A DNA stretch of 64,000 bases from Gammaproteobacteria bacterium (lineage in GTDB: Bacteria; Pseudomonadota; Gammaproteobacteria; SZUA-140). Position 1 is the first letter of the stretch. Every line of letters begins with the position of its first letter. Made by a program: the position numbers and the translations under genes. Where the stretch lies: the NCBI GenBank assembly GCA_015491865.1, contig WFVD01000009.1, forward strand, positions 1 through 64,000, in the 5' to 3' direction. This document shows, piece after piece, positions 9,317 through 59,620 of the stretch. The notes below the pieces were generated by a model. It made no database searches, had not been told where the DNA came from, and saw nothing but the letters and a program-made list of their open reading frames with translations.

Positions 9317-10579
9317 TCAGGCAATCTGTCCAACCCCTTCGGGGCGCCACGATGGTGCTATCACACTTGGCATGCTGGAGCGCTTCAACAAGCGCATCGG
9401 GGTCAGGGTAAACTCGCCATAGCGCTCATTCACCTGATCCATCACCACATTAACCTCGCGGCCATGCGCCTCAACTTTGGGAGAGAAAAGTTCAATCTGG
9501 TGATTAGCGATACGTGGATTTAACGCTGTCACCTGCACTTGGCTCACCGCCTCGCCGTACCAGTGGGTGTTCAACATATCACGACAGAGTCTCATGATCT
9601 CCTGACCACCATCTAGCGTAACGTCTGACTGATACTTGCCACCAATCCAGCCACTTTTTGTACGCAGACCAATAAAGAATCGCCCGGCCTGCATCTTATG
9701 GCGACGCAGGCGAGTCGCCAGCTTTTCACTCATGTGGAGCAGATAGGTCTCGATCACATCGATATCGGTAGTATTGGGCGGCATTACCTTACCATGCCCC
9801 ATCGACTTCGGCGGCTGCGTCTCGATACTCACCCTGTCTGGATCGCTGCCCTGACACATGTGCCAGATACGCCGCCCCTGGTTCCCGAAACGGCGCGCCA
9901 GAACACTGATAGGTATCTGCCTTATATCGCCACATTTATATACGCCGTATTGCGCCAGGAAATCTCCGATACCTTTAGCGATACCGCATAACGCCGTTAC
10001 AGGTAGCTCTTTTAGACGCTGCTCCGCCTCCCACGGTGGGATCACGGTAAGACCGTTAGGTTTTTCCAGCTTCGCGGCAAACTTGGCCGTGGTCTTATCA
10101 CCACTCACACCGATTGAGCAGTGAATGCCCGAGACCTCAAACACCTTCTGCTGCACCATACGGGCAATCCGTAGTGGTGTACCGTGCAGCTTCTGGCAAC
10201 GGGTCACATCCAGAAAGGCCTCATCCACTGAAAACACCTCAACATCAGGGGTAATGTCATGCAGTGCGCGCATAATCTCCTGAGAGACCCGGGCATAGCG
10301 CTTAGGGTCCGCCGGACATTGAATCAGCTCGGGGCAGAGACGCCGCGCCTCACGCAGCCGCATGCCGGTATGAACCCCATAGCCGCGCGCCTCATATGAG
10401 CAGGTGATGATGCAGGTGCCCTGCTCACCGTTTGTAATTGCGACTGGCTTACCCTGCCATTGCGGACGGTCTCGCTGTTCAATTGAAGCGAAAAAGGCGT
10501 TCATATCGACCAGGATAATGGCGCGCGGCCAGTGCACAGGGCTACGGTCTTGCTGATTTTTTTTGGTGATGATTTCCAT
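9317..10579 (-). CDS. Y-family translesion DNA polymerase (DinB/Pol IV-like)
   Basis: This enzyme copies past damaged bases with low fidelity. The 420 residues show the Y-family palm and fingers: LVDMNAFFASIEQRD (metal-binding Asp25) and VFSVDEAFLDVT (Asp119, Glu120). Then follow thumb helix-hairpin-helix segments (LCGIAKGIGDFLAQYGVYKCGDI) and a little-finger domain. VDMN in place of VDMD resembles UmuC, but the length and lack of the UmuC C-terminal domain favour DinB. QIELF near residue 365 fits the beta-clamp binding motif QxxLF. The gene lies 154 nt downstream of lexA on the same strand. A copy of a dispersed repeat with a hairpin fills the gap, so it is unclear whether lexA transcription reaches it. 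No LexA-type site of its own was seen. Confidence 0.88.
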   Translation of the reverse strand: MEIITKKNQQDRSPVHWPRAIILVDMNAFFASIEQRDRPQWQGKPVAITNGEQGTCIITCSYEARGYGVHTGMRLREARRLCPELIQCPADPKRYARVSQEIMRALHDITPDVEVFSVDEAFLDVTRCQKLHGTPLRIARMVQQKVFEVSGIHCSIGVSGDKTTAKFAAKLEKPNGLTVIPPWEAEQRLKELPVTALCGIAKGIGDFLAQYGVYKCGDIRQIPISVLARRFGNQGRRIWHMCQGSDPDRVSIETQPPKSMGHGKVMPPNTTDIDVIETYLLHMSEKLATRLRRHKMQAGRFFIGLRTKSGWIGGKYQSDVTLDGGQEIMRLCRDMLNTHWYGEAVSQVQVTALNPRIANHQIELFSPKVEAHGREVNVVMDQVNERYGEFTLTPMRLLKRSSMPSVIAPSWRPEGVGQIA

Positions 10580-10615
10580 TTATCTTTTCCCCGCTTTAGC
10601 TTGCTTTAGGAACCG

Positions 10616-10736
10616 CTGATTAATTGCCTTGCCTCTCATGGCGAGCAAAGCGTGACGGACTGGCAGTCCAGATTTTCCAGGGCGACCATCTCGATGCTCA
10701 ATGAATCATTAAGTTAAGCGATGACTTCGTCGCTTA
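10616..10736. repeat. Dispersed repeat, copy A (121 bp), between lexA and the Y-family polymerase gene
   Basis: The segment from CTGATTAAT (10616) to GTCGCTTA (10736) has a second copy at 41494-41614 of the same length. About 48 of the first 56 bases match, the middle differs, and the last 22 bases are identical. Its right end overlaps the lexA stop codon. No open frame is shared. It looks like a family of small non-coding repeats. Confidence 0.75.
10715..10736 (-). terminator. Hairpin at the lexA stop codon, part of the dispersed repeat
   Basis: TAAGCGA (10715-10721) pairs perfectly with TCGCTTA (10730-10736) over an 8-nt loop. In lexA orientation the stop TAA is the first three bases of the stem. 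No long T-run follows, so it may protect the mRNA 3' end or only weaken read-through. Confidence 0.4.
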
Positions 10737-11336
10737 TTGGTAGCTACGCATCTGCCCAACCAGCACCCCCTGAATACGCACCCGATGCGCTGCATAAACA
10801 AAAGGCTGCATGGTGCTATTTTCAGGGATCAATTTAACGCGCCCATCGGGCAGATATTTCAGTCGCTTCAACGTCGCCTCTTCACCATCGATCAGAGCCA
10901 CTACAATCTCACCGCTATACGCCTGCTGAGCATGACGGATCACCACCATGTCACCATCAAGGATGCCGACATCGATCATCGAATCCCCAACGACTTTCAG
11001 AATAAAGCGACCAGGCCCCATAAAGAAGTCCATCAGGTTAAGCTTGTCATGCCCTGGAATCGCTTCGATCGGCAGGCCCGCGGCAATCTGCCCCAATAGC
11101 GGCAGACTACCACTCTCCTCCGCCCTCTCTTCTTCGACCAGTTGCAAACCACGCCAGCCGGCATGGTTACGCACGAGGTGCCCTTTATCGATCAACCCCT
11201 GCACATAGCGGTGCAGTGTCCCTTTCGATGCCACCCCCACCGCAGCGCCAATTTCAATCAGTGTCGGTGAACACCGCTGCTGTGAGATGTGAAACCTGAT
11301 CGCATCCAGGATGCGCTGTTCGAGTTCAGTTAACAT
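10734..11336 (-). CDS. lexA: LexA SOS repressor
   Basis: LexA represses DNA-damage genes and cleaves itself when RecA filaments form. The 200-residue protein has an N-terminal winged HTH (PTLIEIGAAVGVASKGTLHRYVQGLIDKGHL) and a C-terminal peptidase. The cleavage bond is Ala86-Gly87 (GQIAAGLPIEA), with catalytic Ser119 (GDSM) and Lys157 (ATLKRLK). All key residues are intact. The recognition helix (SKGTLHRYVQ) differs from that of E. coli LexA (SPNAAEEHLK), in line with the different operator seen upstream. A Y-family polymerase gene follows on the same strand. Confidence 0.96.
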   Translation of the reverse strand: MLTELEQRILDAIRFHISQQRCSPTLIEIGAAVGVASKGTLHRYVQGLIDKGHLVRNHAGWRGLQLVEEERAEESGSLPLLGQIAAGLPIEAIPGHDKLNLMDFFMGPGRFILKVVGDSMIDVGILDGDMVVIRHAQQAYSGEIVVALIDGEEATLKRLKYLPDGRVKLIPENSTMQPFVYAAHRVRIQGVLVGQMRSYQ

Positions 11337-11374
11337 AAACCGTGCCCTCGCCTTAACTAATCAACTTGAAACAG

Positions 11375-11403
11375 ACTATAGAGAACTTTTAGAGAACTTT
11401 CAA
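11375..11403 (-). promoter_or_regulatory. lexA promoter with a direct-repeat LexA-type operator filling the spacer
   Basis: On the minus strand TTGAAA (11403-11398) and TATAGT (11380-11375) are spaced by exactly 17 nt. That spacer contains GTTC-N7-GTTC (GTTC at 11397-11394 and 11386-11383). The site arises from two tandem copies of an 11-bp unit, AAAGTTCTCTA. The pattern equals the alphaproteobacterial SOS box and not the CTGT-N8-ACAG palindrome of enterics. It lies about 40 nt before lexA, where autorepression is expected. Confidence 0.72.
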
Positions 11404-11853
11404 GTGGGGCGATAAAAATAACACCTGCGGCAATCAAACCGACGCTTCAACCCTTTCGATTAATCTCTGCAGATAACAGCCAGCTCCATACCAACTCAGT
11501 TACAAAGAAAGCATCCGATTGAAGGTATATCAAGAGAGTCGCCTGCATAATCTACTCGCTATCAACCACCATTTTCTGGTTTCACCGTTAATCAGATTTG
11601 CTACTGGCTGCCTTCGTCAAGGAAGAGGGCGATGGAAGCATAAGGATCATAAACTCAAATTTTACTGTATTAAATTTATAGCTTAACTGCCTTCAATTAA
11701 GGTGATGAATAGCTTATTGCAACGTCAATTCTTTGTCCTTGTGCCCCATTTAATAACTGATTATTCTTGTGCCATTATTTTTATAAGCAGCGATGTCCCA
11801 ACAAATAGCTGGCATCCAAATTTATAATAATCCCGATAAAAAAGGACTTCTCA
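11404..11853. other. Divergent intergenic region between lexA and the di-heme cytochrome gene
   Basis: About 450 AT-rich bases without a convincing gene. The last 25 nt hold an AAAAAAGGAC ribosome-binding sequence for the cytochrome gene. Promoter elements for that gene must lie here but no hexamer pair stands out. Confidence 0.5.
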
Positions 11854-58481: not shown

Positions 58482-58509
58482 ATATAGGGGCTATTTTGAC
58501 TGAGCCAAG
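58482..58509 (-). promoter_or_regulatory. Sigma32-like heat-shock promoter upstream of grpE
   Basis: On the minus strand CTTGGC (58509-58504, inside the last codons of hrcA) and CCCCTATAT (58490-58482) are 13 nt apart. The -10 is close to the sigma32 CCCCATnT. It lies about 40 nt before grpE. Confidence 0.55.
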
Positions 58510-59540
58510 GCGGCACTCACCATTTTTGCCGTAATATCGACAATAGGGATCACTCGCTCATAGGCCATTCTTGTTGGGCCGATCACACCCAGAATACCCA
58601 GTACCTCGCCATCAACCTGATAGCTCGAGGTTACCATGCTACATTCATCCAGCACGCCATATCCTGACTCTTCGCCGATAAAGATCTGAACTCCATCACC
58701 GTCAAGACAGCGATCCAGCAGCTGCAATATCTGCTGCTTTTCGTTGAAGGCCTCAAAAAGGCCGCGTAATTTCTCTATATTTGAGAGCTCATCAAAGCCC
58801 ATCAAACGGGTCTGCCCACTCAATACAAAATCATCACTATCCGCTTCCGACTCCGGTTTTACAAACAGCTGTTCCGCCATGCTGATCGCCTGATGCATCA
58901 TCTGCTCCATGCCATCTTTCGTCTCACGCAGCTCCTTTAAAATACGGTGGCGTACATCAAATAGCTCATGACCCGCCAGCTCGTTATTCAGAAAATTGGC
59001 GGCCTGTTGTAACTCGGCCGACGTATACTGACGATCAACCTTGATCACCGTGTTCTGCACATCCTTTTCGTTAATGACCAGAATCGCCAGAATGCGGCGA
59101 CCAGAAAGCGGCATAAACTCAATATGTCGCAGCGACGAACGCTTGGCGGTACGCGGAATCATCACCATCCCCGCCATCTCCGTCATCCCGGCGAGATAAT
59201 CCGACACCGATGTTGCCAGCTCCTGGTTCGAACCATCCACCCCCAGCTGGCCACTCAGGGTGATAATTTCTCGTTCACTGAGCGGCTTAACCGTCAGCAG
59301 CGAATCAACAAACATGCGGTAGCCTCTATTTGTCGGCACGCGCCCCGCCGAGGTGTGCGGTGAACTCACCATGCCGAGCTCTTCCAGATCTGCCATCGCA
59401 TTCCGCACCGTCGCCGCGCTCACATCCAGTCCCGAGTCGCGCGCCAATGCACGCGAACCAACCGGTTGCCCGCTGCGAATATAGCTCTCTACCAACACCT
59501 TAAGCAGATGCTGAGCGCGATCTCCAATTTCTTCTGCCAC
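58491..59540 (-). CDS. hrcA: Heat-inducible transcription repressor HrcA
   Basis: HrcA binds CIRCE elements and represses chaperone genes until GroE is titrated by unfolded protein. The 349 residues have an N-terminal winged helix (SGLDVSAATVRNAMADLEELGMVSSPHTSAGRVPT) and a GAF-like C-terminal domain (about 90-340). It is the first gene of the cluster and has a perfect CIRCE in its own promoter. Confidence 0.97.
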   Translation of the reverse strand: MAEEIGDRAQHLLKVLVESYIRSGQPVGSRALARDSGLDVSAATVRNAMADLEELGMVSSPHTSAGRVPTNRGYRMFVDSLLTVKPLSEREIITLSGQLGVDGSNQELATSVSDYLAGMTEMAGMVMIPRTAKRSSLRHIEFMPLSGRRILAILVINEKDVQNTVIKVDRQYTSAELQQAANFLNNELAGHELFDVRHRILKELRETKDGMEQMMHQAISMAEQLFVKPESEADSDDFVLSGQTRLMGFDELSNIEKLRGLFEAFNEKQQILQLLDRCLDGDGVQIFIGEESGYGVLDECSMVTSSYQVDGEVLGILGVIGPTRMAYERVIPIVDITAKMVSAALAQSK

Positions 59541-59620
59541 TGCGTCTCTCGAACGTTAAAAGAACTGTGTTAATTTAATGGTGACGGGGATGGCAAGATG
59601 CAAGCAGCTCCTCTGTCAAT

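Follow-up and report, generated by a model that had tools for sequence, protein, structure and literature searches.

The window, the whole stretch of 64,000 nucleotides analysed here, carries on its minus strand a lexA gene followed by a dinB-type gene, and the promoter in front of lexA is overlapped by a direct repeat. The features, from the promoter downstream, are:

11375 to 11403, minus strand: sigma-70-like promoter TTGAAA-17-TATAGT, overlapped by the operator (promoter scan; equal architecture in relatives)
11379 to 11400, minus strand: predicted operator, AAAGTTCTCTA twice, core GTTCTC-N5-GTTCTC (direct reading; conserved in other genera; sole confident match in the genome)
10734 to 11336, minus strand: lexA, 200 aa, winged helix-turn-helix (wHTH) and S24 protease domains, A86-G87, S119/K157, helix SKGTLHRYVQ (domain matches, alignment)
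10580 to 10733, minus strand: gap of 154 bp between lexA and dinB (neither promoter nor terminator found by scanning)
9317 to 10579, minus strand: dinB-type Y-family polymerase, 420 aa, second gene of the presumed operon (domain matches; catalytic motif SVDEAF read directly)

The lexA gene was identified by TIGR00498 (152.7 bits, with the cut-off at 110.95), and its wHTH domain LexA_DNA_bind and S24 domain both score above their curated cut-offs. Cleavage site A86-G87 and the Ser/Lys dyad S119/K157 are intact. The window's genome (2.54 Mb, estimated to be 99.99% complete) has one LexA DNA-binding domain, that of the lexA at 10734-11336, and one Y-family polymerase was found in it, the dinB at 9317-10579, which judged from its sequence is apparently active.

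The lexA promoter and its direct repeat

On the minus strand the lexA promoter region reads CACTTGAAAGTTCTCTAAAAGTTCTCTATAGT. It contains a -35-like TTGAAA (11403-11398) and a -10-like TATAGT (11380-11375) with a 17-nt spacer, the complete promoter from 11403 to 11375 being TTGAAA-GTTCTCTAAAAGTTCTC-TATAGT, and this is the sole sigma-70-like promoter that was found by scanning 10550-11500. The spacer (11397-11381) corresponds exactly to GTTCTC-N5-GTTCTC, which is equal to GTTC-N7-GTTC, and forms part of a perfect tandem repeat of two 11-bp units AAAGTTCTCTA at 11379-11400, minus strand. The original prediction had the repeat fill the 17-nt spacer; this is exact for the GTTCTC pair, but the perfect repeat of 2 x 11 bp measures 22 bp and thus reaches into both hexamers. 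The repeat is far beyond chance. The full 22-mer has a single occurrence in the 2.54-Mb genome when up to three mismatches are allowed, and a weight matrix, the training set of which includes this site, scores it at 33.7 as compared to 13.1 for the next best site of the window. An 8-bp inverted repeat (ACTTGAAA/TTTCAAGT) that flanks the operator was discarded as a candidate element, since it is not retained in most sister genomes.

Among 17 reported LexA motifs, GTTC-N7-GTTC is assigned to Alphaproteobacteria and CTGT-N8-ACAG to most beta- and gammaproteobacteria (PMC8565304; PMC3323433). What is found upstream of the window's lexA is the alphaproteobacterial type of box, a direct GTTC repeat with a 7-nt gap; the window LexA has neither the CTGT-N8-ACAG operator nor the helix of canonical gamma/beta LexA.

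Conservation among lexA promoters

The element, TTGAAAGTTCTCNNNAAGTTCTCTAT, is conserved nearly letter for letter in the window's genus and family, while the flanking DNA diverges. Next, 24 promoters in front of non-canonical LexA genes were compared, the sources being Gammaproteobacteria plus a single betaproteobacterial MAG; much of the comparison set was picked by similarity to the window LexA, which does not apply to the class-wide search described below. With at most two mismatches, a direct GTTCTC pair at N5 is present in 23 of the 24, as compared to 1-6 for other spacings, 0-3 for inverted or everted arrangements and an average of 0.17 for shuffles. As a positive control, the spacing calculation recovered GTTC-N7-GTTC in 25 of 28 alphaproteobacterial lexA promoters. 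In six canonical lexA promoters the direct repeat was not found (at least four mismatches); two of these have an exact CTGT-N8-ACAG and three more have it within one mismatch.

The promoters of relatives repeat the architecture of the window, with the box within the -35/-10 region, and TTGAAA/TATNNT is kept along with the repeat. Given this and the overlap of the repeat with both hexamers, one could envisage that it has been kept merely as promoter sequence, i.e. -35 and -10 hexamers with an AT-rich spacer, or that it is a chance duplication. This is extremely improbable, since the half-sites in the spacer are conserved to the same degree as the hexamers, since an additional copy in inverted orientation occurs outside the promoter in many relatives, about 24-38 bp downstream and often adjoining the ribosome-binding site (L088, L092, L210, L206, L013 and L016 among others), and since the blind search described below is specific. 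The window's genus is without this second, inverted copy.

Class-wide pattern search

Pattern GTTCTCNNNNNGTTCTCTAT was used to search 369 genomes drawn evenly from Gammaproteobacteria, lexA not being considered. It matched in 30 genomes from 22 families, hence an exact copy of the switch is found in roughly 8% of the sampled genomes, whereas the reversed control pattern gave 0 matches. Upon reading, 28 of the 30 loci, covering 20 families, appeared to be at lexA or dinB: 23 at lexA (two divergent), four at dinB alone and one at a LexA-like stub plus dinB. The remaining two concern a contig end and a locus without assignment. The stub (L246) is a 146-aa LexA-like protein with an S24 domain and no DNA-binding domain, encoded under the box and followed by dinB, and represents either a UmuD-like stub or a decayed lexA. 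Its genome, G294, also has the box at recA.

It is very improbable that the repeat is the operator of some regulator other than LexA, given that the motif tracks non-canonical lexA and SOS genes and no other gene class, and that canonical lexA promoters lack it. The repeat is very likely the SOS box, or LexA operator, used by a gammaproteobacterial LexA lineage of non-canonical type, through which LexA would repress its own lexA-dinB operon. The existence of a direct-repeat LexA lineage in a gammaproteobacterium, as originally predicted, is supported by the conservation across genera, by the blind search and by the recurrence of the box at dinB, recA and umuDC.

Regulon in the window's genome and in relatives

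Models built from 10 and from 29 sites yielded one confident match in the window's genome, the lexA promoter, in a scan that scored 150 first-look candidates per genome and that degenerate sites could escape; the sole other match (E 1.8) falls within a gene. Inspection and matrix scoring of recA promoters of the window's genus, in the window's genome and in relatives, revealed no direct-repeat box. A relaxed GTTCTC-N5-GTTCTC with two mismatches was tried as well and gave 131 places as compared to 118 for the reversed control, which is little or no excess. With a lone confident site, a boxless recA and this lack of clear excess, the detectable regulon is the lexA-dinB operon, and LexA would control a single operon with its own gene and that of the only Y-family polymerase. 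The motif had been expected at recA, ruvCAB, uvrA and imuAB, but such a broad regulon is not visible, the lexA-dinB promoter being the sole confident site. As the window's own genome shows no second damage-response promoter with the motif, the regulon argument depends on relatives.

Bare GTTC-N7-GTTC was rejected as a regulon finder, since it is unspecific, with 42 places in the genome, most of them within genes; GTTCTC-N5-GTTCTC is the informative form. A second exact match in the genome (C29:73536) is located inside a 691-aa open frame that we take to be cheA-like. Within the window, a weak box-like site (59546-59568, minus strand, matrix score 11.9) is found just upstream of open frame 58491-59540, which reads like heat-shock repressor HrcA; this site is probably due to chance. 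The recA promoters of the window's genus (L061-L069) have a common conserved block around GCTAGGATGG-TGGTATCTATGTGATAATTTG, without a LexA box.

In G003 and G006, both from the window's family, the dinB ortholog is located away from lexA and has its own copy of the element at an equal position relative to -35/-10 (L184, L183). Related genomes G028 and G294 have the element just upstream of recA (L213, L268), where the sites score 29.1; the scores of twelve further recA promoters, mostly from the window's genus or family, range from -9.8 to 7.3. In G239 the element is found at the start of the umuDC operon (L269). Weak model matches in relatives, with E above about 0.06, are mostly within genes or at unrelated genes and were set aside, save for side observations such as the one that follows.

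Integron integrases are known elsewhere as a type of LexA-controlled gene. A weaker box candidate in G378 (L283:594-615, E 0.49) is located 30 bp upstream of an integron integrase gene (TIGR02249, 446 bits) and, if true, would place integron recombination under the direct-repeat LexA type. In three genomes (L239, L259, L266) a box is found between or near an SRGS-type lexA and a divergent DEAD-box helicase gene; the helicase of L266, the one scanned, shows a weak HRQ1-type winged-helix match.

Proposed mechanism

The sequence evidence makes an operator very likely; binding, cleavage and induction we infer from the protein family. LexA, probably dimeric, would bind the two GTTCTC half-sites, 11 bp apart on one face of the helix. 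Bound LexA would cover the spacer and parts of both hexamers, by which RNA polymerase would be blocked and lexA-dinB kept off. Upon DNA damage, RecA filaments would stimulate self-cleavage of LexA at A86-G87 and the promoter would open. Error-prone DinB would then be made for translesion synthesis, alongside fresh LexA that resets the switch. Relatives with the same box may have placed recA or umuDC under LexA as well. For the window's genus this points to a minimal damage response, with LexA governing only itself and the sole polymerase of its kind.

Recognition helix and phylogeny of LexA

All 19 window-type proteins have S37, G39, H42 and R43, and 18 of them have K or R at position 38. The SKGTLHRYVQ helix is indeed unlike the canonical one, as had been noted before: canonical gamma/beta LexA is acidic (E/D) at positions 42 and 43, where the window LexA has H42/R43. 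Window-type and alphaproteobacterial direct-repeat LexA have [KR]xxxH[RK] in common; the alphaproteobacterial helix is mostly S-K-S-G-I-H-R and that of Firmicutes S-S-S-T-V-H-G. In a second gammaproteobacterial subfamily, the one with SRGSLHK (Sedimenticola, Thiodiazotropha and others), the same box recurs in four out of five members. Both LexA types coexist in several genomes, namely from Granulosicoccaceae, a Lamellibrachia symbiont, an Ectothiorhodospiraceae MAG and a betaproteobacterial MAG. The Lamellibrachia symbiont (G035) has three LexA genes in total, two direct-repeat lexA at about 6 kb from each other on one contig (L204, L210) and a canonical LexA elsewhere.

Since half-site and spacing match those of alphaproteobacterial promoters (25 of 28 with GTTC-N7-GTTC) and the [KR]xxxH[RK] helix is common to both, the lineage might stem from alphaproteobacterial LexA by lateral transfer, with box and protein both imported. 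According to the title of a paper cited in PMC3323433, a precedent exists in a lateral transfer that involved Acidobacterium and a lexA of alphaproteobacterial type, and an AU test does not reject a single clade of direct-repeat gamma and alphaproteobacterial LexA (p-AU 0.083). However, in the maximum-likelihood tree alphaproteobacterial LexA forms a separate group (100/99) and the gamma direct-repeat groups cluster with canonical gamma/beta LexA (96/87), and protein identity to alphaproteobacterial LexA is only 33-39%. We consider lateral transfer unlikely and do not favour an alphaproteobacterial origin of the protein.

Tentatively, and as a possible rather than a probable course of events, we propose that a widespread gammaproteobacterial LexA lineage reached the direct-repeat operator independently of Alphaproteobacteria. 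It would have begun as a switch dedicated to a single translesion polymerase, alongside canonical LexA, and would in some lineages have become the sole LexA, either with a one-operon SOS response, as in the window's genus, or by gaining recA and umuDC. If this course of events is true, steps of the proposed duplicate-diverge-replace model would be visible in living genomes. The published LexA-replacement model becomes directly testable in genomes that have both LexA types or, apparently, the direct-repeat type alone, and comparison with alphaproteobacterial LexA can reveal which residues determine the identity of the half-site and which determine the orientation of the repeat.

Our search of the open-access literature turned up no account of such a direct-repeat LexA lineage within Gammaproteobacteria; it is apparently a branch of the SOS response not previously described. 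Most gammaproteobacteria have been taken to use CTGT-N8-ACAG as their SOS box, hence annotation based on this motif would overlook the direct-repeat switch, the box of which is found at lexA and an error-prone polymerase gene in about 20 gammaproteobacterial families.

Comparison with known systems

In lexA2-imuA-imuB-dnaE2 cassettes a second lexA is linked to translesion synthesis genes. The lexA linkage of this type of cassette has been noted (PMC6511836) and is shared by the window, where lexA is, however, partnered by a DinB that is apparently active, and no further gene of the cassette is present. Geobacter sulfurreducens has an autoregulated lexA-imuB-C-polY operon and a LexA that does not bind the recA promoter (Jara 2003, as cited in PMC6511836). 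It thereby resembles what is predicted for the window, with an autoregulated LexA and a Y-family polymerase in one operon and recA outside the regulon, but it belongs to a different class, its operon includes imuB-C and its operator is the palindromic GGTT-N10-AACC (PMC8565304).

With the alphaproteobacterial system the gammaproteobacterial one shares the GTTC half-site, the direct orientation, the 11-bp period and a basic residue plus H[RK] in the helix. It differs in that both halves of the gamma sites are longer, GTTCTC, and lie in the -35/-10 spacer, in that the best tree places direct-repeat gamma LexA outside of the alphaproteobacterial clade and in that the window's predicted regulon is very small. 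Canonical gamma/beta LexA is alike in protein family and in the residues of the cleavage mechanism, whereas the window's operator is direct rather than inverted, the helix residues differ and the two types coexist in several genomes.
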